The notes below the pieces were generated by a model, which worked only from the letters and a program-made list of their open reading frames with translations, did not search any database and had not been told where the DNA came from. A program made the translations under genes and the position numbers. From Anadara kagoshimensis (taxonomy: Eukaryota; Mollusca; Bivalvia; Arcoida; Arcidae), in contig CM037867.1 in assembly GCA_021292105.1 (NCBI GenBank), forward strand, positions 11,480,721 through 11,544,720: a stretch of DNA of 64,000 nucleotides. The letters are read 5' to 3'. Below, piece after piece: positions 3,776 to 53,226 of this stretch (positions within the stretch are counted from its first letter, which is position 1; each line of letters starts with the position of its first letter).

Positions 3776-3850
3776 TACATCTTCCATCTTTCTGAATGTA
3801 TGATGTGTTAAATCCTTCCCTAACGACAGAACCTACTGCATTGTAAAACA
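3776..3850 (-). pseudogene. Decayed tandem copy of the 3' end of exon w28
   Basis: The stretch around GTATGATGTGTTAAATCC matches the exon end GTATGATGCGTTAAATCC about 90 bp away, and the similarity continues through the AACGACAGAACC / AACAACAGAACC segment to a GTAAAAC. The donor at the equivalent place has changed (TAGGAC instead of GTAAG), so this copy is not usable. It is the oldest of several donor-side exon duplications in the gene. Confidence 0.7.
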
Positions 3851-3874
3851 CTGTATCATATCACTATATCTTAC

Positions 3875-4037
3875 CATCTTCTTGTGTGTATGATGCGTTA
3901 AATCCCCCTCTAACAACAGAACCATCTGTGTAAAACTGAACAAACAAAACATTTGATGAAGATCTAATGACAGGTGGGGGATTATTTCCGCAAAATTTCC
4001 CCAACAGAGGATCATCTTCACTGAATCCATCATGGAC
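3875..4037 (-). CDS. CUB exon w28: back half of module M15
   Basis: Begins in phase 0 after TTTCAG with VHDGFSEDDPLLGKFCG, then the strand LFVQFYTDGS and GGFNASYTQED before GTAAG in phase 1. It keeps the D-G turn, the FCG cysteine and a T-D at the usual calcium-ligand position. Splicing to w29 restores a GCC codon in front of LCGGG. Confidence 0.93.
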
Positions 4038-4134
4038 CTGAAACACAACAAACACATAGATAGATTGATTACAAAAATATTAATTAAATGGTTGATTCAT
4101 TGATTATTTAAACAATATTTCAGGGGTTCAAAAT

Positions 4135-4321
4135 TACTGTAAAGGGGGAATTACCACGAAAATTTTACCGAAGTGAAAATATCTACTATACAGGTTAATA
4201 TATCACATATCTAGTATATACATCCAGTTATATTTGTTACGCAAAAATTACACCCACACGAAATGCGAGATTTCAGAAATCGCGAAACTTTCATCTCGCG
4301 AAAATAATCCCCTTTACAGTA
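4135..4321. mobile_element. MITE with TACTGTAAAGGGG termini
   Basis: TACTGTAAAGGGGG at the left and CCCCTTTACAGTA at the right are an inverted pair, with TA at the outer edges as a possible target duplication. The interior contains CGCGAAA-type subterminal repeats and no coding sequence. Similar TACTGTA-ended elements occur at 36174, 37175 and 50941. Confidence 0.75.
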
Positions 4322-4363
4322 TATGTTGGAATAGAAGGTCTATTTGTTTTTATTTTTGGCAGG

Positions 4364-4525
4364 TGATTGATTGTACAGTACTTTGGATGTAGTGGTGGTT
4401 GATTGGTTTTGTATGCTGTAGTCAAGATTATATTATTAATCAGTTGATTGATTGTACAGTACTTTGGATGTAGTGGTGGTTGATTGGTCTTGTATTCTGT
4501 AGTCAAGATTATATTCATATATATT
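4364..4525. repeat. 81-bp direct repeat, two copies
   Basis: TGATTGATTGTACAGTACTT and the following GGATGTAGTGGTGG segment recur after 81 bp with few differences. The rest of the intron to 5000 is AT-rich and I see nothing further. Confidence 0.85.
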
Positions 4526-5000
4526 ATATAAATATATTTATTTTAACATTTCATGTCATTATCAGGATTTGTATTTTCAAAACATGTTTTCAAAATAAAT
4601 CATAATGTTAATTACCATGAGCCATTTCAAAATTTAATTTAGTTTTTATTTTACAGCACTAGAAAGTCGTTTTGAAATACAATGTGTTATCAGTTCTTGA
4701 ACAAAAATTGTTAAACCAAAATTTTTTGGGAATTATGTTGAAAACATTCCCAGTGGACGAAAATATATTTTACCAAATTTAGCTAAGGAAATACTTTGCA
4801 TAGGAAGTATACCTTAGTTTTTGAGGAATTTCAGAATTTAACTAGCAGCAAATTTAGACAATAGAACTCAAGGAACTGTACTCAAAAGACCACTGGTTAT
4901 AACACTGCCACAATTTTTACTGTAGTGGTGTTGATTCCCTTTTCCTACAACCTAGTACCACAACATTGGTGTACCAGGTGAGCAAAGTAAGGGCCTTTAC

Positions 5001-5197
5001 CTTAATATAGTCAAATCTACAAGCAGCCTCCTCTATCTCCATATCTTCAATAGTTAGCCTAACAAGCTTGTTATCACCAACAAATATGATCCATTTGCAG
5101 TTCAAGTTATTTTCGTAGAGTCCGTCACCATTTATGTCTATGGAGGAAAATCGTCCAGATGTAGCATTTAGGACACCTCCACAACCTTGTCTAGGTC
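5001..5197 (-). CDS. CUB exon w27: front half of module M15
   Basis: Phase 2 start after TTACAG. It reads PRQGCGGVLNATSGRF, then NNLNCKW, VRLTIEDMEIEEAACRFDYIK and stops in phase 0 before GTAAAG. The first three cysteines and the E-x-x-x-C-x-x-D acidic pattern of calcium-binding CUBs are present. The usual S-P-x-Y-P stretch is replaced by an insert rich in Asp and Gly (SSIDINGDG). Confidence 0.92.
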
Positions 5198-5810
5198 CTG
5201 TAAGGGAAGATTGACAACTTATTGTAAAGTATACAAGCAAATTCAGTGAATAAGGATCCCCCGCCAAAATGTTCTTTTTGTGATTTGAACTTATGTTCAA
5301 AGGGCAATACCCAAGTAACTCCCAAATCAACTCGGGTTAATAATATGCACATCTCCTGTCAATGTTGATTCTTTGCACCAAGTTTCATGAAAAAGTGCCA
5401 TAAAGTTTTTGAGAATCAGCGCAGACAAGCATTTCAGACTGATGGATAAATGGAAACTCAAATTTAATATTCCCCCTCTTTCTTCGAAAGGCAGGGGGAA
5501 AAAACCCATTAATAATTGAAAGACTATTTCATCAAATATTTTATATCAACCTAAATCCCATGACATATTTCTCGATTACATTTCACTAAATGAACATATG
5601 TTAGGCTTATTCAAGGCCCAAAACAATCCAGATAATAAAAGTTTTAAAAGTTTTTTTAGCCATTGTATCCCATTAGACTAGTTTTGGTTGCAAGTAATTC
5701 ATTTATATTCAGATGTCACCAGCTGTAGATGAAGTGACAGAAATAGTCACCTTTTCAGTGGGTTCAGGGCAATTTGCAGGAAGAGTTCTGTAGTGTGCCA
5801 CACCTTGCTA

Positions 5811-6353
5811 CTCAGGGCTCAAAGATGTGACTAAATTAGGCGCCATGGCAACCAAATTTTACTCATAAGTCGCCAATTTGGCGACTGCTTTTTCGGGGTC
5901 CAAAATTCTTGATCATGGCTGATTCCATTTTTCTATTTGCATTTTACATATTGACAAAGTGTTTCCGGTATCCCTCAGTCGGCCTCATGACTTATAGAAG
6001 GAATGTTTTGTATGTATATATACGAAACGTCAAAAGTGTGCCGAATAGAACAGTAATCATCAGTGGGAAGCGACTGTCAATGTGCATTGATAGTTTTTTC
6101 AAGGCAAGTACATGTGATGCTCCCAAAAGCAGGTGATAGATCCATTGCCTGATGATCGATTGATAATAAATGTTTGATATTATACAGTATACACTGTGTT
6201 GTTAGATTGTTTTTAGAATAAAACCATTTTAATTTTATTGCTGGTACCTAAAAGTCTCAATTGGCATCTAAAAGTTTCAATTGACTACTAATTTTTTTAG
6301 ATAGGGAGCCAGGCTGGTTTCTAGAATCTGTGAAAAACTCACTTTGAGCCCTG
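5811..6353. mobile_element. Inverted-repeat element with CAGGGCTCAAAG ends
   Basis: CTCAGGGCTCAAAG at the left is inverted at the right as CTTTGAGCCCTG. The interior holds GGCGCCATGGCAACC and TCGCCAATTTGGCGAC. The short plus-strand frame inside (5909-6136) resembles nothing I know. The stretch 5240-5510 before it is a worn copy of a repeat also seen at 22900-23060 and 26400-26600. Confidence 0.6.
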
Positions 6354-6445
6354 CTACTGCACCATGTGAATTTATCCAAATTATAATTTGCTCAAATATG
6401 TACAAACTAAAATTTACATATAATTATAGTACTAGATTTGTTTAC

Positions 6446-6663
6446 CAAATGTTGTGATGTAAGTTGCAATGAATCCATCAAAAGCAAGCGAAACATCAGA
6501 AACAAAGTTGACCAGCATAGAATTGCCAGTGGAACGAACTATGCCTGGCATTTCCAAACCACAATATCGACCAATCAGAGGGGAGCTTAAATCTGTACCA
6601 TCTCTAACATCAACATAGTCATAAGCACATGTGGAATGCGGCTCTAAGTTGAAAGCTGTAAAT
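6446..6663 (-). CDS. CUB exon w26: back two-thirds of module M14
   Basis: The intron breaks this module early, inside a beta-strand (phase 2 join L-K-F), so the exon holds FTAFNLEPHSTCAYDYVDVRDG, then GRYCG, the SD calcium position (NFVSDVS) and GFIATYITTF before GTAAAC. All back-half hallmarks and cysteines 3 and 4 are present. Ends phase 1 and joins GGA in w27. Confidence 0.93.
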
Positions 6664-6711
6664 CTGAAAAAGGGTAAAACACATAATTAATGAATTATTA
6701 ATTAATTATAA

Positions 6712-7093
6712 CAGGGATTGTACAGACATTTAGACTCCAAATTTAAGGACTTTTTATGGTCTTTTCAGGGTCCTTATTTGCAAATTTAAGGCCTAATCAG
6801 AGGGTCAATTTCAGCAAAAGAATATTGGTGCAAAGGCAATTAAATCAATAAAACAATTACTAAGGCGTTCGGGAGGGCCTGGTACCTTTAAATTTCTCAT
6901 TTCAACGCCACTTTTTATTTATTTTATTTACATACATCAGTCTATTCGCAAACACTAAATATCAAAATACAGACACCCAACTAGCCAAATTCAAGGGCTT
7001 TTTAGGGTCTTTAAGATAAATTCAAGGAGTTTTTAGGGTCTTTTTAGGGCAAGACCCAAAATTTAAGGACTTTCCAGGCTTGTACAAACCCTA
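6712..7093. mobile_element. MITE family 'CAGACATTTAGACTCC', copy 1
   Basis: Ends read GTACAGACATTTAGACTCC and GGCTTGTACAAACCCT, and the body repeats TTTAGGGTC and TTTAAGGAC motifs in both orientations. Copies 2 and 3 are at 10868-11302 and 21254-21495. Confidence 0.65.
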
Positions 7094-7281
7094 TATAATT
7101 AAATTTGAAATCTCAAACTCAGAATCCAGAAAACATAGAAAAGTCAAACTTAAGAGCAGCAGTTACTTGATTAAAACAAAGGTAAAGAAGCTGGATACAG
7201 GTGGTGATAAAATTCATAAGAACATACTCAGTTAGTTCTGTAAACATTTAAGATAGTGTTAACGACAACTAATTTCAGTAC

Positions 7282-7530
7282 AGGGGTTCAAAATCCTCCG
7301 GGCCCGAGGTCCGGGACCTATTGATTTTACATTCGGATCCTTGATATTTAAACCGTAAAATTTCTATGGACCTGCAGTTTTTTACTGGGATCACACTGCC
7401 TTTTCTATGTGATAACACACTTGAACCTTTCAATGTTGATATTGGACTTTCAACACTTTATGTGGAATCTGCCAAAAAAAAAGGTACTGGGCCTTCCATT
7501 TTAAAACATAATCTTGAACCCATGCAGTAG
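7282..7530. mobile_element. Repeat starting CAGGGGTTCAAAAT
   Basis: Shares CAGGGGTTCAAAAT, then GACCTATTGATTTTACAT and CAATGTTGATATTGGACTTT, with 25703-26355 and 35945-36396. The last two retain an inverted AACCCCTG / GAACTCCTG right end; this copy is truncated. The interval 7530-8160 shows nothing else clear. Confidence 0.55.
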
Positions 7531-8160
7531 AAATCTCAAAAAATTTACTTTTTTATAGCATTTATACTTCATTAGGGAACAGAAAACAATGTCACATTCT
7601 TCTTTTGGTAATTTTGGTAAATTCAACAAGAACTGTCTTTTAAAAGCCAAATCCCCCGCCCCCCTCCCACTTTAATGTTTTCCTGCAACCTTGACCTTTC
7701 GATATGACTTCAGTTCAAAGTCATTGCACACCTTTGGACCATGAAGATTATTCATGTGAAGTTTTATAGTAGTTGTCCAAAGCAATTATGAAATATGGTC
7801 AGGACACTTTTTTACACAGACAGACAGATGGTTTGACAGACATGGGGGTTCCTAGATTTGTCAAAAATAGTTTGAGAGGGTATAATTACAGGAACTGACT
7901 GATATGACAGATATGTAGTATGCACAAAAAGATTGTTTATTTTTGTAAGAACAATTTTTTATTTCAATTCATAAAAAAGTGGTCTACTGTTTATTTAGCC
8001 TATTTCGGAGAAAGCAAGATCACAAAATATTCCATAAATTTCAATACGACGGGTACAAATCAATGATTCTTTACTTACATTAGCCGAGTCGTTACTAAAA
8101 AATCCTGTTTCGGCTCCATCCTTGCTTAGTATATCATTTTATGTGACAAAATATAAACTG

Positions 8161-8520
8161 GGTGGGTGTTTACAATGGTAATCATTTATTCGAAATGGCG
8201 GGGTTCTTTATGTTATGTAGTCATAACGAAAAAGTCAACTATTTATGTAGGTTAGTGCAGCTCAAGAACGGATTGATTTTTGCGAAACTGGGATGACAAA
8301 AATTGATTTAATAAAGTAATAAAGTGAACTACCTTTCTGCATTTTTAAACTTTTTAAAAAATTGATGTAAATTTGAACTTTTAAACTCAACCAACCTTTG
8401 AGCTACCCTTCATTGAACCCCTTGCGAACCTACGTAAATAATAAATTCTTCCGTCATCATTACGTCACACAAAACACACCGCCATCTAGTCAAATTTTCT
8501 ACCATTGTAAACACCCATCC
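8161..8520. mobile_element. MITE with GGTGGGTGTTTACAATGGTA termini
   Basis: The left end and the right end TACCATTGTAAACACCCATCC are inverted repeats of about 20 bp with a single mismatch, enclosing about 320 bp without coding sequence. Confidence 0.8.
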
Positions 8521-8804
8521 AAAATATGTTTTGGAGTATTGAAGGAGTTATAATGCATGGATTAGATTGAAATTAGGACTATTAGCAATGAATCGACTCA
8601 TGTAAGTAAATGATAAATTGATTTTTAACCGTGCCATTCAAATCTTTAAAATATTAGCGTTATTCCTTTCTCTGCTGCAGAGTAAATAGATAGTAATATC
8701 CTATTCCCTTGTATTTTTGTAATTGGGTCATGAGAATCCAATATAAGATAACTTCAAGTTAAAGTTCAAGCATACTGTTCTAATGGGACTCAAACAGTTG
8801 AGTG

Positions 8805-9147
8805 TTTGAGTTGAGTGAGTAATGGTGTTTAATGTACCAGTCAAGGATATTTCACTTATATCGAGACGTCGCCAACTATAGGCAAAGGTGCAGAAATTTT
8901 GCCTGTATGTTGCGCTTATGGCATTATACAGCAGGGTTCTTTATTGTGCCAAGCCAACCGTGACACCGGACCTTGTTTATTTTAAGTTCCCATCCGAAAG
9001 AACCGTGAGTTTCAGTCCGTAATGCAAAGTGCTTGGTGAACAGTCACTACCCACTTTCAAGTCTTGGGTCAGACACGGTCGGGGTTCAAACCCTTGACCT
9101 TCCACTTACGGAGCAAGCACTCTACCAACGGAGCTACCGCAGTGGTT
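8805..9147 (-). mobile_element. tRNA-derived SINE, near full length
   Basis: Reverse strand reads from GGTAGCTCCGTTGGTAGAGT through a GGTTTGAACCCC B-box-like motif to the tail TTAAACACCATTACTCACTC. It includes the segment CACTTTCAAGTCTTGGGTCAG, missing from the copy at 440. The plus-strand frame 9033-9215 lies inside it. Confidence 0.85.
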
Positions 9148-9369
9148 TAAAACAATGTGTGTATCATACTTATTATCACAGGTACACAGCTTCTTATGAC
9201 AACTGTGACAAGTAACATCTGTACCAAATTTCAGAAAAACTGAATCTTGCAAAATTGAATAAACTTCTGAGCAAAATAATGCCTACAGATGAAAAAAAAA
9301 CCAGATGAATAAACAAGATGATTCCAGTAAATCTAGAGGGATGGAGGATAATTGATTGATCGGGTGGGG

Positions 9370-9666
9370 GTGTTACATTCAAGTCCAGAATATTTCACTT
9401 ATATCAAGAGCACAAAAGCTATGAGTGAAGTGGCAGGAGTACACTCTGGGCAATGGCAGACAGGGTTTTTTATGTGCCATGCTTGCTGTAACACTGGGCA
9501 TGGGTTTGTAAGTTCTCTTCCAAAAGACCCTATGACTTTCATTTTTTAATTTCTGAGTGCTTAGCAACAGAACTTCTTCCAAGTCTTGGTCAGAACCGTC
9601 TATGGTTTGAACCCACAACCTCCCACATACAGAGCAAGCACTCTACTAGTTAAGCTACCACAATGG
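9370..9666 (-). mobile_element. Diverged tRNA-derived SINE
   Basis: Same order of blocks as the copy at 8805 (CAGAATATTTCACTTATATC, then the head with CTCTACTAGTTAAGCTACCA) but with many substitutions. The overlapping short frames on both strands are SINE sequence. Confidence 0.7.
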
Positions 9667-9696
9667 TCTGGGGGAGGGGGGATAATAAACTACATT

Positions 9697-9891
9697 ACCT
9701 CAAAATTTCAGTAAAACCAGTCAACTTTATATAAGGACCAACACCTTTAAAAGCCAATAACATTTTATCCCAATTGCTCTTTATTCAGGTTGTTTAGACC
9801 TGTAATTAAGGGTTTCCTACCCAAAAAGGCCAGTTTTACACTTCCAATTAGCTGACCTTTATCATCATGACAGATTTGACTGTACAGTAAA
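9697..9891. mobile_element. Worn MITE of the CTGTCTATAAAGG family
   Basis: Contains CCAGTCAACTTTATATAAGG at the left and CAGATTTGACTGTA at the right, related to the element at 3402. It directly abuts the ACAGTAAAACC-ended MITE that follows. Confidence 0.5.
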
Positions 9892-10073
9892 ACCTCGTTA
9901 TAATGCCCCTCGATAACTTTGCCACCTCGCTTATCACCACACTTTTTTGAAGTCCCAAAATTCATTTTGTTTGTTTTTCTTTATGAGCCTCCCTCAATTA
10001 ATTGCCAAACCCCTTTATAACGCCAAAATTTGACTGAACAGATGGTGGCCTTTATGGACAGATTTTACTGTAC
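9892..10073. mobile_element. MITE with ACAGTAAAACC termini, second copy
   Basis: ACAGTAAAACCTCGTTATAA at the left matches, inverted, the right end of the 2702-2893 element; the right end here is GATTTTACTGTA. It stops four bases before the donor side of exon w25. Confidence 0.7.
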
Positions 10074-10077
10074 TTAC

Positions 10078-10204
10078 TTAAGATCAATTACTCTGTCTTC
10101 CTGTACTGTAATTAGCCATGTACAGTTAGCATTATGATGGTACTGTGTTGGGTATGTCGGAGTTCTGATAACACCATAAGCCTCGGTGTAGTTACCACCA
10201 CATT
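10078..10204 (-). CDS. CUB exon w25: front third of module M14
   Basis: Short front exon. After TTTTTCAG it opens phase 2 with ECGGNYTEAYGVIRTPTYP, then NANCTWLITVQEDRVIDLK and a GTAAGT donor in phase 2. The S-P of the usual SPxYP motif is T-P. The module is completed by w26. Confidence 0.93.
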
Positions 10205-10867
10205 CTGAAAAATAAAATAATAACAGTATAAATAAGGGTTAAAATAGCGAAGTGGTTATTGCCCCGTATGTCTTAATAACAAATGCGTTATTACCACGCA
10301 TCTTTTATACCGTTATTTTATAGTATACATATTTATGGGCTTTTTAACTTTATGATTGGCTATAAATACATTAATTTAGTGATAATTAAAGTATATTTAA
10401 TAGTAACTTGTCAAATTTGGGTCAAATAATAGATTATTTTGATAAAAAATGTTAATACGGTTTTAGATCCGTCATTTTGTTTTTGTCATACGGTCGGATC
10501 GTTTTTTGCAGTTCATCAATCATTTAGACAGCAACTTTTTGGAAAAAATATCAATAAAATTTTGTTTTAATTCTAAATTGGACTATTTAGTCCTATTCAA
10601 TCGATGTATGAAGTTTGATGCGTACGGTTATATGGGTATAAAAAATATGTGGTAATAACATCTGCCTTAAAATAAATAAAGAAATAAAGGATTAGAAAAA
10701 TCACAACCTGTAAGATTATGTTATCTGATGTTACTTATGGAAAATTACAAAATAAACAGCATATTTCATGTGAACAAGATCCAATGTTTTCAACTTGCCA
10801 GTATGCAGATTGTCACCTTGTGGATATAGAAATTTTCTATTTTTAAAAATATGTACAAACATATTAT

Positions 10868-11302
10868 CTCAGGGTTCATACAGACATTTAGACTCCAAAT
10901 TTAAGGACTTTTTAGGGTCTTTTTCAGGGTATTATTTGCAGATTTAAGGCCTAATCAGAGGGGCAATTTTAGCAAAGAAAGAAATATTGGTGCAAAGGCA
11001 ATTAAATCAATAAAACAATTACTTGTGTCCATAGTAACGACACTTAAAGTGGAGGTTGAAGTTAGGCTTCGGGAGGGCCAGGTACCTTAAAATTTCTCAT
11101 TTCAACTCAACTTAATTATTTAATTCATAGATATTAGTCTATTGGCAACCACACAATATCAAATACAGACACCTAAATGACCAAATTCAAGGGGTTTTTA
11201 GGGTCTTCAGGATAAATCCAAGGAGGTTTTAGGGTCAGACTTGTTTTTAGGGTCTTTTTAGGGCAAACCCCAAAACTTTTCTAGGCCTGTACGAACCCTG
11301 TA
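10868..11302. mobile_element. MITE family 'CAGACATTTAGACTCC', copy 2
   Basis: Starts AGGGTTCATACAGACATTTA and ends CCTGTACGAACCCTG; internal blocks match copies at 6712 and 21254. The preceding stretch 10248-10660 is AT-rich with GGTAATAACA / TGTTATTACC-like inverted motifs and may be another element. Confidence 0.65.
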
Positions 11303-11392
11303 TCTATGATAGGATGAACATACTACTAATTTTACTGAATTCAATTTTATTTTTACTTATGTAATTTGACATTAAATTTAATCATCACTTAC

Positions 11393-11584
11393 CAGAGGCT
11401 CTGTACATTGCACTGAATCCTCGATATACGCGGGACGCATCCGTTTTGAATTGAAGAAACATCGTTCCAAGTGAGCTTATTGCCTGTGGTGGTACCCTGC
11501 CACAGAATCTTCCCAGGAACCTGCCACGAGTATCATTGCCAGCCCATGCTGATATGGAATCAAACTGACATGATCCAACTGGTC
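11393..11584 (-). CDS. CUB exon w24: back half of module M13
   Basis: Phase 2 start after ATTTTAG: GPVGSCQFDSISAWAGNDT, then GRFLGRFCGRVPP, FLQFKTDAS and GFSAMYRAS before GTAAGT (phase 1). The third cysteine lies unusually close to the exon start and the D-G turn reads A-G-N-D. The fourth cysteine and the calcium-ligand Asp are kept. Confidence 0.92.
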
Positions 11585-11769
11585 CTAAAATATTGAACAA
11601 AACAAATACTTGTAATGATGTCTTTTGAACTTTCCCAACTTGTTACTGGGTTTAGCAAATGTGGTAAGAGTTAAAATTTAACATTAATGCTCACAACTTT
11701 TAAAAACCTTTGAATAACTGCATTATTTTCTCCAGCACCAAACCATTTCCAATTGGATTAATGAATTTT

Positions 11770-11865
11770 CTGTTCAATTGTGGTTGACTGGAGATGAACC
11801 CATAGCAGTGAAACATCTTTGATTTAAAAGCTGATGCCCTAACCATTTTAGCCACTGTGGTCCTG
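11770..11865 (-). mobile_element. tRNA-like repeat fragment
   Basis: On the minus strand GGACCACAGTGGCTAAAATG and GCTATGGGTTCATCTCC sit at tRNA-like spacing. No complete cloverleaf is evident. I see nothing else in 11585-12370. Confidence 0.4.
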
Positions 11866-12374
11866 TATTTTATGTCAACTAATAGCTTTTTATATTTACA
11901 AAAGATACAATATGATAAGAATCATTTTTGAACCCTAAAATAAAATAAAATAATTTAATTTTAGGTATCCTTTTAATATCATCATTTTCAGTTTATTTAT
12001 AACCAACATTGGTCATGTGATCCATAGAAAAGGTGACGGAGCCACGGTTGTTAATGGTTGCAAGCTCATTACGTCACTGACGTCATTTGTATAAATGTGC
12101 CATATGACGGTGGAAATTTGAATGAAACATTTTGAAAACATTAAATTGCCATGACCAAACTAAAACACAATTTTTCAATAATGCTAAATATTACTCTACC
12201 CCGAAAATCACAAATTTACACTGGTCACATGACCAAACTTAAATTACAGTTTTTGATAATGCTGAACTGGGAAATTGCACATTCAGACTTGTCACATGAC
12301 AAATTTACAGATCATATTCACAAAGATATTTCATTTATCATCAAAAAGATTGTTTACAGCATTTTCCTCTCAAG

Positions 12375-12456
12375 ACTTACCTTCAATATGGAAGATATTT
12401 TTGGAGAATTCCAGGACTATAAACTTCTGTGGGTCTACTCTAATGGTATTTACAGT
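12375..12456 (-). pseudogene. Tandem copy of the 3' end and donor of exon w23
   Basis: About 75 bp of exon end plus the GTAAGT donor are repeated with an 82-bp period immediately downstream of the real donor. Only about three bases differ. Reading on from the real exon to the second donor meets a TAG stop eight codons into the intron, so this second donor would truncate the protein. It is a young duplication. Confidence 0.93.
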
Positions 12457-12462
12457 ACTTAC

Positions 12463-12618
12463 CTTCAATATGGAAGACATTTTTGGAGAATTCCAGGACT
12501 ATAAACTTCTGTGGGTCTACTCTTATGGTGTAGTTACATAACAGATTATCTGTGTACATTTGGGGATGTCCAGGGGAGACAATCACACCAGTGTCATCTG
12601 TATATAATGCTCCACAAC
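12463..12618 (-). CDS. CUB exon w23: front half of module M13
   Basis: After TTTCAG, phase 2: CGALYTDDTGVIVSPGHP, then LLCNYTIRVDPQKFIVLEFSK and NVFHIE before GTAAGT (phase 1). The aromatic after cysteine 2 is Tyr in C-N-Y-T instead of the common C-x-W. Joined to w24 through a Gly codon. Confidence 0.92.
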
Positions 12619-12659
12619 CTGAAACAAAGAGTAAACCATGCGTAAAACACAAAATTATC

Positions 12660-12900
12660 AAGGAAACAGGCTTCAGATAAATCAATTGACGTATCGCCTG
12701 CCATGCCCACAATGTTCTGACACTGACTGCCATCACGGTACGAAAGCAGCTTCATGGCAGCTAATGACATTCTATTGTCAGTGACATCATTAAACAACAC
12801 AATTCTGGCCGCGTTTTCATTCTTTTTGCATGTAATTCAAGCATGTCGACCCTTTGTTGGAACATAGTGGGCCTGGCCGGCGATCCATCAATTGGCCATT
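12660..12900. mobile_element. Dispersed repeat 'TTCTGACACTGNCNGCCATCACGGTAC'
   Basis: The order of blocks GCCATCACGGTAC, AGCAGCTTCATGGCA, GACATCATTAAA and GTAATTCAAGCATG is shared with 43800-44005; a fragment is at 17095-17185. No coding sequence or clear ends. Confidence 0.6.
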
Positions 12901-16798: not shown

Positions 16799-16852
16799 GT
16801 TATGTGTTCATGTAAACGAAACTATTACCCAGTAAACATTAAATTACTAAGT

Positions 16853-43478: not shown

Positions 43479-43502
43479 TTTTTTTTTTATTGTAATACCA
43501 AC

Positions 43503-43690: not shown

Positions 43691-43799
43691 CTGCAAATAA
43701 TTAAAATTTGATACTTTAAAATCATTTACTTCTGTGATGTCCAATTTTCATTGCTCTTTTTTGTACAGATGTTAACTTATGGTTTGTGGTTTTTGTACT

Positions 43800-44005: not shown

Positions 44006-44578
44006 TCTGTAACATTATTTACTTTAGTGGTGTCTAATGGGGTTCATTGTTGCACTATGTGATACCCCTCGTCATTTGAGCAGAACAGTTACTTTATTTC
44101 CCATGTGATAAGGAATCATATAAGTTCATATTTCCCATAAAAACAATGTTATTCTTGGGATTCTGAAAGTAAACCTTGTCCAAAATGTCAAAAGTCGAAA
44201 AATTGGCTGGACTACCATGTCTGCCCAATCACTATGGTGGGGCTGTGCTAGTCCTGGTGTTGTATAAAGCAGTTATAATAGAATGATTTACTGCCAGACT
44301 TTCTGGTCCAGATCTTTTTAGGCTTGTGGTAGAATGTTTACATTTTACCAAAGGGCCGGGTTTGAGCTAGAGGGACTTCGTGAGGAAGTAGAGTTTTTCA
44401 GGTGTTTCCTCACTCCCTCCCTCCTGTAATATCACAGAAATGCCAATTTAACATCATAAAGTAATCATTTTGTTCAACATATTATTGTTATTTTTTTGAC
44501 AAGAGAGAATTTGATAATACAAAGAAGAGACTGAAGCAGAATGAGAGAAAGAAATGAGACACAGGAAGACAGAAACAG

Positions 44579-44671
44579 AGGGAGAGAGAGAGAGAGAGAG
44601 ATTTTGTTGAGACACAAGTCAAGACACTGAAACAGGAGAGAGAGAGCGAGAGAGAGAGAGAGAGAGAGAGA
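44579..44671. repeat. Two (GA)n microsatellites
   Basis: Runs at 44579-44601 and 44634-44671, about 100 bp beyond the donor of exon w9. The minus-strand frame 44488-44718 is made of this sequence. Confidence 0.93.
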
Positions 44672-44771
44672 GTTTGATGAGACAGAGGAAGAGAGATAAA
44701 GATCACAGATTCATCCACACATGTAAGTTATAGTAAAAACAAACAAATTCAGATATAAACTATTTATTTAC

Positions 44772-44936
44772 CTGCTTTGTATTGTAATGAGAATCCAGTT
44801 CTGTTCAAAGAGTAATCCGTTGTGAATCTGAACTTCAGAGAATTAGATGTAGAGAGTAATGGCTGACTGTTGGGTACTCTACCACAGTAGGTCCCTAGTA
44901 CATACTGGAAATAACCAGAATAACTGCCAGGACGTA
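44772..44936 (-). CDS. CUB exon w9: back half of module M5
   Basis: Opens phase 2 after TTTCTATAG: RPGSYSGYFQYVLGTYCG, then LKFRFTTDYSLNRTGFSLQY and KA before GTAAAT (phase 1). I choose the acceptor nearest this complete copy; eleven upstream partial copies carry the same acceptor. Cysteine 4, T-D ligand and G-F are present. Confidence 0.9.
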
Positions 44937-46485
44937 CTATAGAAATAACAAACAAGAAGTTATTATAACATACAGGGAATTTGACGTGGAGAGTAATGGC
45001 TGACTGTTGGGTACTCTACCACAGTAGGTCCCTAGTACATACTGGAAATAACCAGAATAACTGCCAGGACGTACTATAGAAATAACAAACAAGAAGTTAT
45101 TATAACATACAGGGAATTTGACGTGGAGAGTAATGGCTGACTGTTGGGTACTCTACCACAGTAGGTCCCTAGTACATACTGGAAATAACCAGAATAACTG
45201 CCAGGACGTACTATAGAAATAACAAACAAGAAGTTATTATAACATACAGGGAATTTGACGTGGAGAGTAATGGCTGACTGTTGGGTACTCTACCACAGTA
45301 GGTCCCTAGTACATACTGGAAATAACCAGAATAACTGCCAGGACGTACTATAGAAATAACAAACAAGAAGTTATTATAACATACAGGGAATTTGACGTGG
45401 AGAGTAATGGCTGACTGTTGGGTACTCTACCACAGTAGGTCCCTAGTACATACTGGAAATAACCAGAATAACTGCCAGGACGTACTATAGAAATAACAAA
45501 ACAAGAAGTTATTATAACATACAGGGAATTTGACGTGGAGAGTAATGGCTGACTGTTGGGTACTCTACCACAGTAGGTCCCTAGTACATACTGGTAATAA
45601 CCAGAATAACTGCCAGGACGTACTATAGAAATAACAAAACAAGAAGATATTATAACATACAGGGAATTAGAAGTAGAGAGTAATGGCTGACTGTTGGGTA
45701 CTCTACCACAGTAGGTTCCTAGTACATACTGGTAATAACCAGAATAACTGCCAGGACGTACTATAGAAATAACAAACAAGAAGTTATTATAACATACAGG
45801 GAATTTGACGTGGAGAGTAATGGCTGACTGTTGGGTACTCTACCACAGTAGGTTCCTAGTACATACTGGAAATAACCAGAATAACTGCCAGGACGTACTA
45901 TAGAAATAACAAACAAGAAGTTATTATAACATACAGGGAATTTGACGTGGAGAGTAATGGCTGACTGTTGGGTACTCTACCACAGTAGGTTCCTAGTACA
46001 TACTGGTAATAACCAGAATAACTGCCAGGACGTACTATAGAAATAACAAACAAGAAGTTATTATAACATACAGGGAATTTGACGTGGAGAGTAATGGCTG
46101 ACTGTTGGGTACTCTACCACAGTAGGTTCCTAGTACATACTGGTAATAACCAGAATAACTGCCAGGACGTACTATAGAAATAACAAACAAGAAGTTATTA
46201 TAACATACAGGGAATTTGACGTGGAGAGTAATGGCTGACTGTTGGGTACTCTACCACAGTAGGTTCCTAGTACATACTGGAAATAACCAGAATAACTGCC
46301 AGGACGTACTATAGAAATAACAAACAAGAAGTTATTATAACATACAGGGAATTTGACGTGGAGAGTAATGGCTGACTGTTGGGTACTCTACCACAGTAGG
46401 TCCCTAGTACATACTGGTAATAACCAGAATAACTGCCAGGACGTACTATAGAAATAACAAACAAGAAGTTATTATAACAGTAAAA
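44937..46485 (-). repeat. 137-bp array: 11 tandem copies of acceptor plus front of exon w9
   Basis: Each unit carries TTGTTATTTCTATAG, about 95 bp of exon from RPGSYSGY to STSNSL, and then TGTATGTTATAATAACTTC, so each has an acceptor and a GTATGT donor-like site. Acceptor positions recur about every 137 bp up to near 46446. Two copies are 138 bp and stay open through (the 143-codon frame at 45348-45779). Copies differ by few bases: YFQ or YYQ, ACC-TAC or AAC-C variants. The unit is not a complete CUB half and would shift frame if included singly by its own donor. Confidence 0.95.
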
Positions 46486-47269
46486 CATGTTTATAATTAA
46501 GCCCTGGGGACTCTGTTTTTAAGTTCTTTATAATGTTATATATACTAGATATATATATAGAGGAGCGGCCAGGCCCAATATTTGACCTTGTACTATCAGT
46601 GTAGTTGGTGTAAGCATGATCGTTATATGCATGTTTAACTGTATAATGATACATCTGAAAATACTTTAAACGTTTTTATTTTTACTGTGTACTGATTTTC
46701 ACTTAATTTGAGGTTGTTTGTGCAAGTCTCGATTGGGATATGTTACATCACATCACCCGAGACTGAGATCAGCCATTATCGGTCACACACAGGTGATAGA
46801 TTCTATTTCAAAATTAATACCGAATGAAAATTATATAACGCTTCTTGTTTTAAAGTGCACATTTCAAAAACGTGAATTTTCAACTACGTGGATACGTCTA
46901 AATTCCCTATACCGCAAAAATAAATACAGACGAAATTAAGTACGTTTACAGTAGTAAAATACAGTAAAACTTCAATTTATTGCTAGTATTTATTTAGTTA
47001 AATACAGATCATGGTGCCTTTCATTTCCTAGGTCAGAAATATACTATTGTCAAAATTTGCTGCTATTGTTAAAATCTTAAATTCCTAAAAAACTAGGCAA
47101 AGTATTTCCTTAGCTAAGTTATGGTTCTTTGGATATTATTTCAACCCCTTCACAAAAACTTTAGTTTCAGAACTTTGGTCCAAGCATAAATGATGATTCT
47201 ATATAAAAATGGCCACCTAGTGCTGTAAAATTAAAACTGGTTTGTTAAATATGTAATTTAAACCGCTGA

Positions 47270-47360
47270 GCCAGTATCTCTGCTGGTGGATGTTTTCCTG
47301 GGGATATCACAAACTCAGTATCTCTGCTGGTGGATGTTTTCCCAAGGATATCACAAATTC
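47270..47360. repeat. Short direct repeat, two copies
   Basis: CAGTATCTCTGCTGGTGGAT and GATATCACAAA are repeated after about 47 bp. The neighbouring region 46490-47270 is AT-rich with CTTAGCTAAG-type motifs and no clear element. Confidence 0.7.
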
Positions 47361-47579
47361 AGGAGGCAATACTTTTTTGTATTGTCGGAAATATACTACA
47401 TGTATTGTCTAAATTTGCTTGTAGTTAAAATCTTAAATTCCTCAAAAACTAAGATATATGCCCTCATGCAAAGTACATAAATTTGTTAAAATAAATTTTG
47501 GTCCTTTGCTAGTGCACAAGAGGTTTGATGCAAACAATAGCACTGTCATGATTGCACATGCCTCAACTCCTTGACACCA

Positions 47580-47908
47580 AGACTATGGTAGCTCAGTTGG
47601 TAGAGCCCTTGCTACCTATGTTGGAGATTGGGGTTCAAAACCCAGCCATGACTGACCAAATCCTTGAAAATAGGTAGTAACTGTTCTTTCACTAAGCAAT
47701 AAGTATTTAGAAACAAGTCATGGGGTTCTTTAGAAGAGACCTTAAAAACTGATGACCCATGTCTTGTTAGGTGTGCCACACTAGAGAACCCTCCCTGCAC
47801 ATTCCCCAGAATGCACATCAAAGTCAGAATTCTGCCATGTTACCTTTATCTAGTGACATCTCAATATAAATAATATACTCTTAACTGGATGTAAAACCCC
47901 ATTTAACT
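47580..47908 (+). mobile_element. Diverged tRNA-derived SINE
   Basis: Head TATGGTAGCTCAGTTGGTAG and body blocks in family order, many substitutions, tail ATGTAAAACCCCATTTAAC. A low-complexity AACCAACC-type stretch follows (47905-48030). Confidence 0.75.
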
Positions 47909-48059
47909 AACCAACAAACTAACCAAGCCACCAACCAACTAATCAACCCACCCACCCAACAACCCACCAACCAATCAATCCACCAACCCATTAGCCAATC
48001 AACCAACCAACCAACCAGTCAATCAATCTTGGTTCTAGCCAGACAAATTCTACACTTAC

Positions 48060-48263
48060 CATCATAAATAACAAGCTTATCATAGAGGCAGGTTCCATGT
48101 GTCTCTATATCTATGTCCGATATATTAACCCAAATGCGAAATCCTGGAAGGGAGTGGAGAGACCAGGTACAATCCAGATTGTTGTTATATCCGAATGGAT
48201 ATCCTGGAGAAGTCACCACTTGTGTTGTAGCCACTGCTCCGAAGTCACCGCCACATCCAGGGA
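48060..48263 (-). CDS. CUB exon w8: front half of module M5
   Basis: After TTTTTTCAG, phase 2: PGCGGDFGAVATTQVVTSP, then NNLDCTWSLHSLPGFRIWV and the acidic motif DIDIETHGTCLYDKLVIYD before GTAAGT (phase 1). A canonical calcium-type front half. It follows the Pro/Thr linker of exon w7. Confidence 0.95.
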
Positions 48264-48939
48264 CTGAAAAAAATGCAAATAAATAATTATGTTCAATTTT
48301 TAGAACATAAATACTGTACATCTACCAGGACAATCAAATATATGACAAGTCCATATTCATGGGAGGTGTGAGGGTTGTCAATGCATCCTCCTTTGAAAAT
48401 CATTAAACACTGTTTAAGCAATTTTTGATCAGCAGCTTTAGAAATTTGTGTAAATTTTTGTTTTAAGTTTTTCATTAAAGTGCTTCAAAATGTACTATTT
48501 TGCCTTTTATTTTCAAACATTTTCTGGTGAAACATGTCCCCATACCCCTAGCACCTTTGAATAGGACAAAGTATTATGGACAAACAGATGAATGGATGGG
48601 TGGATTCAGTAGCATCTGTGCACATGGTGTAAACATTTACAGATTTTGTGAAGGTAGTTACAGAGTTACCTCCCCTTCATGCACAAAAAATGTTAAATTC
48701 TGGTTATCAGGTATTAATTTTAGTAAAAGTATCTTCAACAAGTAGGCCCAAAAACTACATGTATTATGGAGAGAGGGACAGACAACACCTTACCATTACA
48801 GTTGGTCCAGGGACCTCTATATGTGAATGTCCTATCAACTAACCTAGCCAGACTGCTACAAAAGGCATTTGTTACTCATAACTACTTATTTCACATCAGT
48901 TTTATAACAACCAATTCCAGATTCTGCAAGTGTAATGGG

Positions 48940-49132
48940 GTAGGGGTTGGTGAGGTAGATGGTGCAGCCGTATTTTTATATTACCCTACCTCTGACTAAA
49001 ATCTAATGCCTCATCCAATATGTTTTCTGACCCTGTATTATTCCGTACGGGACACTTACAAACCATGTAACTTATAGTACATACCTGGGGTTGGTGAGGT
49101 AGATGGGGCAGGGGTATTTTAATATTACATAC
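48940..49132 (-). pseudogene. Decayed copies of the Pro/Thr linker end of exon w7
   Basis: On the minus strand CCATCTACCTCACCAACCCC followed by AGGTATGT lies at about 49083-49108 and again, without the donor, near 48950-48972. It resembles the exon end CCATCAACCACGCCAACGCC ... CCAG and GTATGT. Reading through from the real donor hits TAA at once, so these would need separate splicing, and I see no good acceptor. Confidence 0.6.
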
Positions 49133-49340
49133 CTGGAGTTGTAGATTCAGGCGTTGGCGTGGTTGATGGAGGAGATTCGTTAGTTTCGTCCCATCTGAAC
49201 AAGAAACCCTGACCTGTACTAGAGAAGTCAGAATGGAACTTGACCAGGAGCTGATTGGTGGTACTTATAAATGGATCAGGTAGTGTATATCCACACAACT
49301 GTCTAAGTACTGGACTGTCTACAAGTCCACCATCACGGAA
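49133..49340 (-). CDS. CUB exon w7: back half of module M4 plus Pro/Thr linker
   Basis: Opens phase 0 after AATTGTAG: FRDGGLVDSPVLRQLCG, then LLVKFHSDFSSTGQGFLFRW and a tail of about 22 residues rich in Pro, Thr, Ser and Glu (PPSTTPTPESTTP) before GTATGT (phase 1). The linker is suited to O-glycosylation and would separate two blocks of CUB modules. No other exon in the window carries such a tail. Confidence 0.93.
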
Positions 49341-49692
49341 CTACAATTCAAAAATTATGTTATTGCTATGAATAATATAGACTGAAATACAGTCATATTG
49401 AAAAACCCTGTCTGCACATTGTCCTGGGTGCACTGCAAAGGTAAAATTTCTGCCACTTCACCTTTTGCTGGTGATGTCTCAATGAACATGAATTTTATTT
49501 TACTGTGACGTAACACCTCATTCATTCATTCATTCATTCATTCATTCAATCATTCGTCTGTTTGTTTGTTCATTCGTTCATTGGTTCAAAAAATCAATCA
49601 ATCAATCAACCAATTAATCAATCAATCAATATACCGATTCCTTATCTCGTACAAATTAAAACAAGTTAAAAAAGTTCAAACTGGTTTAAATA

Positions 49693-50035
49693 TACTGTAA
49701 ACATTTGATTTAATGCCAACATTTGTTTAGTCAAATTTTAAATTTTGTTTGGCTTTATAAAGAGATATGACAATAAATTGATGAACACTTATAAAGAAAA
49801 CCAGAAAAAACAGATTTTGTAACTTTAAACTACTATGGTGAAATGTTAGGTGGCAAAGTTTTAAATGGGCATTATAAAAAGGTTTTACTGTACTGTCAAA
49901 CCTCCCTTTAAGGCCACCTCTACATAAGGGCCACTTGCTTTTTAAGTGAGTTTAATTTTATCCAAGTTGTTCTTTATTCATGTTATTTGAACCTGTATAT
50001 AAGGGTCACCTGCCATTAAAAGCCACCTTTACTAG
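49693..50035. mobile_element. Two abutting MITEs
   Basis: 49693-49893 starts TACTGTAAACATTTG and ends AGGTTTTACTGTA (ACAGTAAAACC family). 49894-50035 contains CAAACCTCCCTTTAAGGCC and GTATATAAGGGTCACC (CTGTCTATAAAGG family). Confidence 0.6.
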
Positions 50036-50039
50036 TGTA

Positions 50040-50155
50040 ACATGATAGGGAAAAAATGGTCAAACCGGGAATTCAAAACCTGGGATCTTCCAAATACTAG
50101 TGGGATGCTCTTCCCACTGAGCTACTCGACCACCTATTGAGTCAAGCCCACCACA
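50040..50155 (-). mobile_element. tRNA-like SINE fragment, type II
   Basis: Minus strand: GTCGAGTAGCTCAGTGGGAA and CCAGGTTTTGAATTCCC at A/B-box spacing. Confidence 0.55.
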
Positions 50156-50219
50156 CTGGTTTACTTGAGTGGTCCTTATAGACAGGTTCCATTGTAATTT
50201 AAAGATAAAAATAGTGTAC

Positions 50220-50407
50220 CATAATGTAGTCATAGTAACAGTTTGTGTTAAATCCACTTTCCATATCCAAGGTAACAAAAGTAATTCTGATCATCATCCC
50301 CACAGTAACAGTTATCGTCCAGGTATAGTCAGTGTTATGTGGATACTGTCCTGGATATCCAGGGGAGGCAATCTGTCCTGTACTTCCTGTCAGTGCTCCA
50401 CCATACA
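50220..50407 (-). CDS. CUB exon w6: front half of module M4, lacking the first disulfide
   Basis: After TTGACAG, phase 2: YGGALTGSTGQIASPGYP, then HNTDYTWTITVTVGMMIRIT and NTNCYYDYIM, ending phase 0 before GTACAC, an unusual donor. The first and second CUB cysteines, always paired with each other, are both Tyr (Y-G-G and D-Y-T-W), while cysteine 3 and, in w7, cysteine 4 are kept. The rest of the module is standard, so the exon looks functional. Confidence 0.92.
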
Positions 50408-50940
50408 CTGTCAAGTATAAATTTAAAATAGTTTTATTTCACAATTAAACTGTCTCGAAATGATGTTTAGATAGTGTAGCATATAATCATAAATATCATT
50501 GTCAAGAAAAAAACAATACCATTGCATACTTTTACACCTCAACCACTCCATTATGCTAACACCAGTTAAGTCAGCAGCGATATGAAACAAAGTAATTTGC
50601 TTGAGGTAAGAACATGCCCCTGTCAGGATTCAAACCCATGAACCTTAGATATGGGCAAAAAGGGCCTTTAGAACAATTTAATCTTAAAAGAAAACAGATT
50701 TTGAAATGCAATAAACATAGTCTACTGAGAAAACATGGTTTTGTGTTTTTTACAATTTCTCCACAACTACTAATGTGATTTCACTTCTAATTATAATTTT
50801 TGTTTTGTTACTAAAACATAACGAAAATTGAAAATTTCAAATCTCAATTTTGTGACCTAATTAGGGGCTCTTTTTGCATGTGGATGGTCAATATTTTATA
50901 AACCAGAGATTTTGAACTGTTTCTATTTGATACATTCACA

Positions 50941-51151
50941 TACTGTAAAAGTATTTAATTCCGTGTGTATTTATTTTCGTGGTATGGGAAATTTAGGGAT
51001 TTCCGTGTAGTAAAATTTTCGTGTTTTTGAAATATGCAGTATAACACAATAAGTATAAAATAATTTTTGCTTGGTATTAATTTTTACACAAAACAAACAA
51101 CCAAGAAATAAAGAAAAATAATAAAACTCGAAAATAAATATGTTTACAGTA
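50941..51151. mobile_element. MITE with TACTGTAAA / TTTACAGTA ends
   Basis: Terminal inverted repeat about 9 bp, interior with CGTGTTTTTGAA and CTCGAAAATAAA motifs; ends 15 bp from the donor of exon w5. Confidence 0.65.
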
Positions 51152-51166
51152 ATATGTTTGACCTAC

Positions 51167-51366
51167 TTGTGCTGAATTGACCCATAAAACCAATTCCAGA
51201 ACTCTCGCCGTCTGATCTAAATTTCATCCAAAGACCATTGGTTGCTGTTATGTTACCAGGTGTGTTAGTTCCACAGAATCGACCAATCAAACGACCATTT
51301 ACATCTCCTTCTCGGAACTCAACATAATCAGAGTTACAGGTTTCATGTTCTTCAATGTTGAAAAGA
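51167..51366 (-). CDS. CUB exon w5: back two-thirds of module M3
   Basis: Phase 2 join: first base completes a Ser codon, then LFNIEEHETCNSDYVEFREG, FCGTNTPG, KFRSDGES and GFMGQFST before GTAGGT (phase 1). Cysteines 3 and 4 and the calcium ligands are intact. Confidence 0.94.
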
Positions 51367-51712
51367 CTTAAAATAAAAGTAAGAAATAGTAAAAAATAAA
51401 TATCAAGTTATTTTTATATTGTTTAAAATATAATTTCCTATGAAAGCAAAAATATTTCATGAAACACAACATTTTTTCCATCTTTTGGTAGCTACTGAGA
51501 ATGTCCTCATCACATCCCATATCAAAGTGCATGACAGAGGATAATAAAAATAACAGGATAATACATGTACATTGTATTTGTTTTGTTTTTAATAGCTTTT
51601 GAGAAGTTTTGAAGCCGTAAATTTTTAAGGGTATTCAAGGAAGACAGATACTTGAATAACATCATATTAACTAGCTAGTATCTTTAAATGACACTCAAGA
51701 TACTTTTGAAAG

Positions 51713-51782
51713 TACAGTCAATCCTGTCTATAAAGGCCACCAAAGGGAACCAATAAGCATGGCCTTTATGGCAGGTTTGACT
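51713..51782. mobile_element. MITE fragment of the CTGTCTATAAAGG family
   Basis: ACAGTCAATCCTGTCTATAA at the left, ATGGCAGGTTTGACT at the right; internally deleted relative to 3402-3582. Confidence 0.6.
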
Positions 51783-51833
51783 CTATTTATATTATCATGA
51801 TTATGTAAATTGTAAACCAAGAAAGACAGTTAC

Positions 51834-51966
51834 CTAAATGACACCATTATACGGTTTCCAGGAGCTATTGAAAAAGTCCATACACATTCTGTGTCTAGTG
51901 GGTAATTGTCTGGATAAGAAGGACTGAGAAACGATCCTCTTTCTGCTGTGAAATCTCCACCACAAC
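51834..51966 (-). CDS. CUB exon w4: front third of module M3
   Basis: After TTTCCAG, phase 2: CGGDFTAERGSFLSPSYP, then TECVWTFSIAPGNRIMVSF and GTAACT in phase 2. Front-half hallmarks complete; the module is split inside a strand as in M14. Confidence 0.94.
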
Positions 51967-52007
51967 CTGGAAAAACCAAAACATATCATAATGTTAGTCT
52001 AAAGTAA

Positions 52008-52320
52008 AACGTAAATTACTTTTTTATTGAGAGAAATTTATTAACGAATAATTTCACGAGGACTCTTGGTTGAATATTATTCTTGGAATCACGAAAATTT
52101 AAAAGCCAAATTTAAACCATAAAGGAAATTGACTAAGATCACGGAAGGTATAATTAACTATGTTAACATGACAAGGCTTCCTAGGAAAGGAAGATAAATG
52201 CCTATCAATTGTGAATTTTAATATAATATTCACATAGCTTCTTGCCAAGAATTTACAAATTCACAAAATGATGCTTAGTGGTCAGCACGCAAAATGTGAT
52301 ACTCGCGAATTCTACAGTAT
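52008..52320. mobile_element. MITE shared with 29800-30093
   Basis: TTTATTAACGAATAATTTCA and CGAGGACTCTTGG at the left, GCGAATTCTACAGTA at the right. Confidence 0.5.
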
Positions 52321-52389
52321 TCTAGGGGTGCAAATGTCAAGTCTCTTTCAATATCATTTAGCTCTATCACAACCTTAAAATGTTTTCAA

Positions 52390-52700
52390 GACATCCCTCC
52401 TGGGTCACCATGTCTCACTTCCCTGGTAAAAGTTCATGTGTCTAACTTTATTTACAAGTTTCAAAGTTTTCATGTTGCTTTGAGATTTTTGATTTGGACT
52501 GGAATTAGTATGTTTATTTGTTATAAAAACACCATTGATATCTTTATCAAAACCATCAGTGTTGGAAGTTCATGTGTTAAACTTCATTTGCCAGTTTCAA
52601 AGTTTTTACTTTGCTTCAGGATTGTGATTTGGACATGGATTGGTATGTTTGTGTTCACTGTGCTTTAGGATTGTGATTTTGACATGGGTCGTATGTTTGT
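52390..52700. repeat. Ancestral-looking relatives of the 40-43 kb minisatellite unit
   Basis: Two diverged copies of a longer block (AAGTTCATGTGT ... GTTTCAAAGTTTT) each run into GATTGTGATTTGGACATGG-like units (52480-52510, 52618-52640, 52665-52690). The last unit ends about 20 bp from the donor of exon w3. The same block and one unit are at 63600-63720. Confidence 0.8.
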
Positions 52701-52717
52701 TTTTGATGATTACTTAC

Positions 52718-52957
52718 TTGAAGCAGACTTGGTATACACAGCTCTAAATCCTGACAACTGAACAGAGTTGTCCGATATAAACGTAACATACATAGAGGAA
52801 CCATAGGATGTGATTGGTGCTGGCACAGTGTTACCACAGTAACTACCAATGACTGGTGCTCCTACATCATCTCCATTATAGACAGTAACACTGTCATGAT
52901 CACAGGTCCCAGATGGCTCAATACCCATATCAGTGAAGGTCAAGGTCACTTTATCAT
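52718..52957 (-). CDS. CUB exon w3: back two-thirds of module M2
   Basis: After TGTTTCAG, phase 2: DDKVTLTFTDMGIEPSGTCD, H-D-S-V-T-V-Y-N-G-D, SYCGNTVP, VTFISDNS and GFRAVYTKSAS before GTAAGT (phase 1). A complete back half with calcium-ligand residues. Confidence 0.94.
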
Positions 52958-53226
52958 CTGAAACAAAAAAGAAGGTGTTCATATCTGTGAAGAGCAAGGT
53001 TATCTTGTCATCTTTTCATCTTAAAAGAAAAAGAGCCTCAATATTCTTTTCAGTGGAAGTCAAGGTCACTTTATCATCTGAAATTAAAAAGATGCTCGAT
53101 GTTCAATATTCTTATCAGTGGACAATGTTCAAATGAATGAAGGTCAAGGTCACTTTATTATCTGAAAAGAAAATGATGCTTGATGTTCAAATGAATGAGG
53201 GTCAAGGTCACTTTATCATCTGAAAC
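52958..53226 (-). repeat. Tandem partial copies of the acceptor and front of exon w3
   Basis: The block ATGATAAAGTGACCTTGACC with its preceding TTTCAG acceptor recurs about four times upstream with irregular spacing (near 53080, 53160, 53222 and a worn one near 53012). Each keeps TTTCAGATGATAAAGTGACC or a close variant. They are acceptor-side counterparts of the donor-side duplications. Confidence 0.85.

Follow-up and report, generated by a model that had tools for sequence, protein, structure and literature searches.

Tandem copies of exon-intron junctions in a cubilin-like gene of the bivalve Anadara kagoshimensis

The stretch of 64,000 nucleotides from the bivalve Anadara kagoshimensis analysed here (contig C11:11480721-11544720, in the following the window) is low in GC and carries part of a cubilin-like gene in which exon-intron junctions repeatedly bear extra tandem copies of the exon edge together with its splice site. 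Boundary minisatellites of this kind are called mirages, and we consider it likely that the copied junctions are just that: ordinary tandem duplications, tolerated since splicing can ignore them. Observed directly were the extra copies themselves, which lie on the intron side, a reading frame that keeps phase across the authentic sites, breakpoints that vary, differences in copy number between the two copies of the gene present in the assembly (the window gene copy and a second one, described below) and the same structure in other genes. The kind itself is already known; here it occurs in a lophotrochozoan and in several genes.

A first-pass annotation of the window had reported seven junctions, five on the donor and two on the acceptor side, with extra tandem copies of exon edge and splice site. 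Base-by-base reading bore out all seven, with the sides as given, and agreed with its claim that the copies range in age from decayed to nearly identical and that the process is recurrent (Table 1). The affected donors are at 3874, 12462, 19734, 24172, 49132 and, just outside the window, at -317 (46 bp x 17), and the affected acceptors at 44936 and 52957. The authentic site comes first among the copies at donors and last at acceptors; an intron-side copy was found for 9 of 105 junction windows and an exon-side copy for none. Spare sites are intact at 12.4, 19.7, 24.0 and 44.9 kb and at -317. The exonic share of the unit is smallest at -317, with about 4 nt, and largest at 44.9 kb, with about 100 nt, so that there is no fixed cut site and the offset of the breakpoint from the junction is not constant.

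The arrays differ in their details. At 12.4 kb both donors read AAG/GTAAGT (the slash marks the exon end), and 3.9 units are present in the second gene copy; at 3.8 kb the second gene copy has two better preserved extra copies. The 31-bp pair at 19.7 kb runs on into an 88-bp x 12.5 minisatellite, and Tandem Repeats Finder (TRF) detected no array at the corresponding place in the second gene copy. In the 137-bp array, represented by five units in the second gene copy, the unit takes in roughly 100 nt of the exon, which is 165 nt long; eleven spare acceptors TTTCTATAG are intact, and GTATGT at the unit joins delimits a 100-nt pseudo-exon. At 49.1 kb CAG/GTATGT recurs at +48, with a further piece about 144 bp on, and at 53 kb the extra acceptors are at -62, -120, -204 and -262.

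Table 1. Features of the window, with copied junctions of other genes (plain numbers are window positions)
Feature	Position	Strand	Description
Cubilin-like gene	234..62030	minus	CUB profile matches and splice signals; 30 of 53 exons inside the window
Donor mirage of exon 3875-4037	3775..3936	minus	one decayed copy ~90 bp on; second GT lost
Donor mirage of exon 12463-12618	12375..12529	minus	82 bp x 1.9, 97%
Donor mirage of exon 19735-19856	18580..19748	minus	31 bp x 2 at 19685-19748, 97%
Donor mirage of exon 24173-24350	23943..24271	minus	109 bp x 3, 89%; same in second gene copy
Acceptor mirage of exon 44772-44936	44836..46479	minus	137 bp x 12, 98%
Decayed donor copies of exon 49133-49340	48943..49134	minus	48 bp
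Acceptor mirage of exon 52718-52957	52917..53230	minus	four decayed extra acceptors
Partial acceptor copy of exon 23119-23334	23307..23806	minus	~455 bp upstream, not a clean tandem
Weak cluster over donor of exon 25464-25645	25337..25559	minus	period ~153; fails strict test
49/84-bp minisatellite	39955..43479	minus	starts 23 bp beyond donor of exon 43503-43690
Related 49-bp repeat	52608-52700		starts 17 bp beyond donor of exon 52718-52957
Intron-only 81-bp duplication	4360..4515	minus	comparison, away from junctions
Dispersed 145-bp array	27576..28624	unstranded	comparison class
Further dispersed arrays	31923-32587, 32795-33551, 34164-34768, 37615-38954		
Mirage in control gene	C5:40.18 Mb		acceptor; three extra copies by eye, four by copy test
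Mirage in control gene	C18:14.04 Mb		donor copied once, 92 bp on
Mirage in control gene	C5:6.20 Mb		donor, 23 bp x 1.9; TRF and eye, outside copy test
GTPase exon array	C1:15.781-15.784 Mb (also L037)		44-bp units with CAGGTAAGT

Searches for copies gave the same picture. A broad scan with 50-base windows returned ten junction clusters, which are the seven reported ones plus donor -317, acceptor 23334 and donor 25463; a score of 38 was reached by 4,515 windows, against 17 of 20,529 with reversed targets, and a score of 42 by 4,378, against 8 of 20,529. In a strict test, which used a 60-base junction window and up to 2 kb of the adjacent intron, copies covering the junction were found at seven of the 104 junctions of the window gene copy, six of them inside the window, and at none of 104 with reversed targets. 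Both -317 (16 extra copies) and 23334 (one partial copy) were confirmed. The strict test misses donor 25463, the 19.7 kb junction because the 31-bp unit is shorter than the test window, and the 49.1 kb junction because its copies are too decayed. In the second gene copy it found nine junctions, two of them exclusive to that copy (scores 34 and 40). A third test, using 25 bases either side of the junction, was positive for 6 of 52 donors and 3 of 53 acceptors in the window gene copy, and for 5 of 41 donors and 2 of 42 acceptors in the second.

The gene was delimited by profile matches and splice signals, leaving exons upstream of the CUB domains out of the exon search. So defined it has 27 CUB domains in 53 exons over about 103 kb, each domain being encoded by two exons save for one fused pair. 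Pfam assigns CUB to nine of ten translated stretches submitted, and the closest solved protein structure is cubilin (3kq4, E 3e-78). An exon-by-exon check showed intron phase to be consistent through the authentic sites in 51 of 52 cases, the exception coming after a frame-shifted exon. The fused pair is exon 36785-37143, in which two CUB half-exons are joined without an intron (the exons at 37.1 and 36.9 kb were counted as one); it measures 359 nt against 362 nt in the second gene copy, and is the one exon of 53 in the window gene copy without an open frame.

The second copy of the whole gene is inverted and lies about 0.4 Mb away, at C11:11.77-11.94 Mb (assembly searched: 1.115 Gb, 36 contigs), with all 53 exons present in order. 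Exon identity between the gene copies averages 98.8% (43 exons compared), while aligned blocks of more than 1 kb are 88-98% identical, chain blocks below 85% identity being excluded from the alignment; an open frame is missing in three of 43 exons of the second copy. Further CUB and Hox matches likewise form close pairs on one contig, the members of the one Hox pair compared being nearly identical, and because of this pairing we read the two gene copies as probably two alleles (haplotypes) placed side by side in the assembly. Among the Hox genes found are one whose homeodomain is followed by PKLTGP, the Lox5 signature, and one of Lox2/Lox4 type; both genes point to a lophotrochozoan, and the low GC content together with the dispersed 145-bp arrays described below suggests a mollusc. 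An intron of the second gene copy harbours a 23-kb array (C11, about 11.861-11.884 Mb; 395-bp unit x 50), for which TRF gave no counterpart in the window gene copy.

Comparison of the two gene copies revealed turnover of the junction arrays. Under the strict test the number of extra copies differs at four of the seven junctions common to both, with 11 in the window gene copy versus 4 in the second at 44936, 1 versus 3 at 12462, 1 versus 2 at 3874 and 16 versus 13 at -317, and is equal at 52957, 24172 and 23334. As copy number differs in this way, the arrays behave as minisatellites. The exons without an open frame in either gene copy, and an assembly that seems to hold both haplotypes, might be taken to point to an assembly artefact, but we regard this as extremely improbable and have set it aside: both gene copies, each placed separately, have the seven copied junctions, with unequal copy number at four, and misassembly of identical sequence cannot yield decayed copies.

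The structures are consistent with a simple course of events. A short stretch with an exon edge and neighbouring intron would be duplicated in tandem, with varying breakpoints and possibly through slippage or unequal exchange. Since the extra copy lies towards the intron, splicing at the first donor or at the last acceptor would leave the mRNA as it was, and selection would presumably not remove the duplication; the array could then expand, contract and decay as any minisatellite.

Tandem exon duplication, as seen in mutually exclusive exons, is also a local duplication of exon sequence, but copies a whole usable exon, whereas here only part of the exon is copied; whole-exon duplication was thus set aside. 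Every copied site that was scored leads to a frame shift or a stop, as the first-pass annotation had said of those it translated; an in-frame, stop-free extra AG does occur 27 nt before exon 52718-52957, and is not a copied acceptor. The spare donor at 12.4 kb and several at -317 score equal to the authentic ones. These donors and the eleven intact acceptors of the 137-bp array could suggest that the spare copies serve alternative splicing or the control of splicing and are retained for it, as could the change of splicing by exon-intron border repeats in some human genes, reported in the available passages of PMC2812944. Such a function seems to us quite unlikely and was set aside, given that the scored copies lead to stops or frame shifts, that decay is evident in the copies at 3.8, 49.1 and 53 kb, and that copy number drifts between the gene copies.

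Copied junctions are not special to cubilin. Three control CUB genes were picked for dense CUB matches before their repeats were viewed, and their junctions were limited to profile matches with a splice signal above a set score; each of the three has one mirage, that is 3 of the 49 junctions tested (a weak match at C5 donor 5501, score 34, was left out of the counts). Of five Hox acceptors, one, that of a Lox5-type homeobox exon (locus L031), is reached by T-rich tandem repeats just upstream (1400-1486 of that locus), in which the AG is not copied.

For a genome-wide view we used the donor motif CAGGTAAGT, which occurs 13,923 times, against 10,032 for its reversal. Pairs 20-50 bases apart number 1,123 against 345 for the reversal, counts in which long arrays dominate. 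At a spacing of 26-28, for which the count is complete, there are 14 distinct loci against 3 for the reversal, or 3.4 times as many per occurrence (P=0.03; two C12 loci 0.39 Mb apart were merged, the unmerged count being 15). Adding spacing 20-50 among the matches listed, a comparison covering C1 and the first 19 Mb of C2 only (7 against 3 loci), gives 20 against 6 loci (2.4x, P=0.04). Six of the seven listed spacing 20-50 loci were inspected: three start at an evident exon end and the remaining three could not be tied to an exon. In a GTPase exon (MMR_HSR1, E 1e-6) the donor is followed by a long 44-bp array with at least 68 CAGGTAAGT pairs, and an exon ending in DSDTDSET, without a Pfam match, has 37-bp units, about four in number; these two show the structure seen in cubilin. 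The third is a WDR11 exon (PDB match E 7e-7), where the members of a 42-bp pair are only weakly alike. Another 37-bp array, with at least 55 CAGGTAAGT pairs, lies at C4:58.737-58.740 Mb.

The first-pass annotation had proposed that duplication is targeted to junctions, and this is the part for which the evidence is divided. TRF found 33 arrays, of which 22 are locus-specific, as judged within regions around the two gene copies, and 11 dispersed, with more than one match elsewhere in these regions and therefore excluded from the locus-specific counts. Six of the 22 span a junction, where 2.7-3.3 are expected (P 0.03-0.10 under two placement schemes), and ten span a junction or lie within 20 bp of one, where 3.3-3.8 are expected (P 0.0004-0.002), the 20-bp limit having been set after the distances were seen; none of the 11 dispersed arrays spans a junction and one is within 20 bp. 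Permutation against exon edges thus favours the proposal for arrays near or across a junction and does so weakly for spanning alone. Judged from the periods of those 16 locus arrays that are intronic, founding units should span 1.35 of the 104 junctions, and 6 are spanned (P=0.003); in the three control genes 2 are spanned against 0.27 expected (P=0.03, TRF alone), and pooled with these the count is 8 against 1.62-1.75 (P 0.0003-0.0005).

Counts of nearby copies go the other way. With low-complexity windows excluded from the control points, a nearby copy is found at 15.6% of intronic points outside dispersed arrays and at only 9 of 105 junctions; the intronic figure is 24.7% with dispersed arrays included and 3.8% without arrays over four copies. 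In the control genes it is 4.4% (mirage points included), against 3 of 49 junctions. Of the 19 arrays present in one gene copy only, 4 lie close to a junction or cross it, as do 7 of the 13 shared (P=0.07), and one of those four, the array at 3.8 kb in the second gene copy, exists in the window gene copy in decayed form.

Support for junction targeting is moderate. A moderate junction excess, of about 2-4 fold, remains, for which formation at hot spots and longer retention or detection are both candidates. If tandem duplication had its hot spots at exon-intron junctions, some property of the junction, such as the DNA of the splice signals, or pausing or R-loops in splicing-coupled transcription, would raise the rate at which arrays are founded. 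The spanned junctions, alone and pooled, the clustering of locus-specific but not of dispersed arrays, the excess of the donor motif in tandem pairs and the similar cases reported from lancelets, for which the available passages give no rate, agree with this. Nearby copies, however, are commoner at intronic points than at junctions, the breakpoints have no fixed offset, the limit of 20 bp was chosen post hoc and spanning alone is weak; the junction bias is also stronger in shared than in single-copy arrays, which points to retention rather than origin. We therefore find hot spots a rather doubtful explanation, and it is with the same reserve that we mention the wider idea of junctions as general hot spots in large-intron animal genomes, through a process shared by lancelets and this lophotrochozoan. 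If it were true, such a process would steadily supply spare splice sites, and arrays like the 137-bp one, with an acceptor and GTATGT in each unit, would be raw material for new introns or exons.

Retention would let duplications arise at the ordinary rate and remain visible for longer at junctions, since selection on the exon holds one copy constant and deletions near the exon edge are harmful. Part of the junction excess may be of this origin, and both the bias in shared arrays and the high identity of the exons relative to the longer blocks are in keeping with it. Against it, the numbers are small, the copies at 12.4, 19.7 and 44.9 kb are young (97-98%), and one constant copy should by our reasoning extend visible life about twofold at most, which is below a 3-4 fold excess; as a full account it is conceivable, and we lean somewhat away from it. 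The related proposal of the first-pass annotation, selection against duplications that alter the exon, fits in so far as none of the 33 TRF arrays lies wholly within an exon, though the number expected there is too low for depletion to be proved.

The reading of the copied junctions as tolerated, ordinary duplications is also to be weighed against what does not suit it. The junctions are over-represented (6 against 1.35), which is unexpected for simply neutral, random duplications, the human border repeats (PMC2812944, in the passages available) can change splicing, and the two presumed alleles could be true paralogues.

The closest known systems are the mirages of lancelets, described in the available passages for Adh3 and the globins BflGb6 and BflGb9 (PMC3087553) and for troponin C and PGBD5 (PMC3902484), with regular splicing reported for the genes concerned in both. 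As here, the repeats in these passages span 5' and 3' borders, have units of 10 to about 160 bp and in many cases keep AG or GT. Their copy number differs between haplotypes or sequence versions; in our case it differs between two gene copies that are probably alleles. Normal splicing can ignore the repeats in the lancelet genes and would do so in the bivalve; somatic instability is reported for the Adh3 mirage. The present case comes from a lophotrochozoan instead, and it involves other genes besides one gene with many affected junctions.

Human genes in segmental duplications have variable tandem repeats at exon-intron boundaries, with 27 intron modifications, according to the passages seen of PMC2812944. 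They resemble the present arrays in their variable number between near-identical copies. The human cases were picked by transcript evidence of changed exon/intron structure, including novel introns, whereas ours were found in genomic DNA, and a stop or frame shift follows from each site scored. Intron gain by tandem genomic duplication (PMC4974935, in the parts available) likewise duplicates DNA with splice signals, and the 137-bp array could be recruited in this way; that process makes a new intron, while here the copies sit in existing introns and none that is new is evident. In the window gene no new intron within formerly continuous coding sequence was seen, its introns being viewed without outgroup comparison.

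The first-pass annotation knew of no description of the pattern for CUB genes; the pattern as such has been described in lancelets and at human borders. Among the search matches from the open-licence literature, titles and abstract openings contain no report of copied junctions for CUB genes or lophotrochozoans, and the available passages of PMC9210306, PMC6792250 and PMC4039745 describe no copied boundaries. Most mirages reported so far are from lancelets, and duplicated human genes have border repeats as well; the presence of mirages at many junctions of one gene and in other genes of a lophotrochozoan suggests that the feature is widespread in animal genomes. Both the idea of junctions as duplication hot spots and that of junction minisatellites feeding intron gain can be tested in existing genomes, and annotators should be aware that a spare splice site may be strong and yet an inert copy.

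Further arrays lie in the introns nearby. Related 49-bp repeats stand beside two different donors of the gene, and a 41-bp x 55 minisatellite at 59541-61799 begins 68 bp beyond the donor of exon 61868-62030. A transposon-borne origin of the junction arrays was set aside, since the dispersed arrays are not at junctions. The 145-bp arrays of the window are similar to the oyster Cg_HINE elements, non-autonomous Helentrons which, in the passages available of PMC7492417, have 140-180-bp units, a short microsatellite and a terminal palindrome. Cg_HINE elements differ from the junction arrays in arriving by transposition, and no dispersed array here holds an exon edge. The dispersed array at 28.6-29.2 kb is followed by an ACGACGG microsatellite and the palindrome GAGCCTTTGGCTC.

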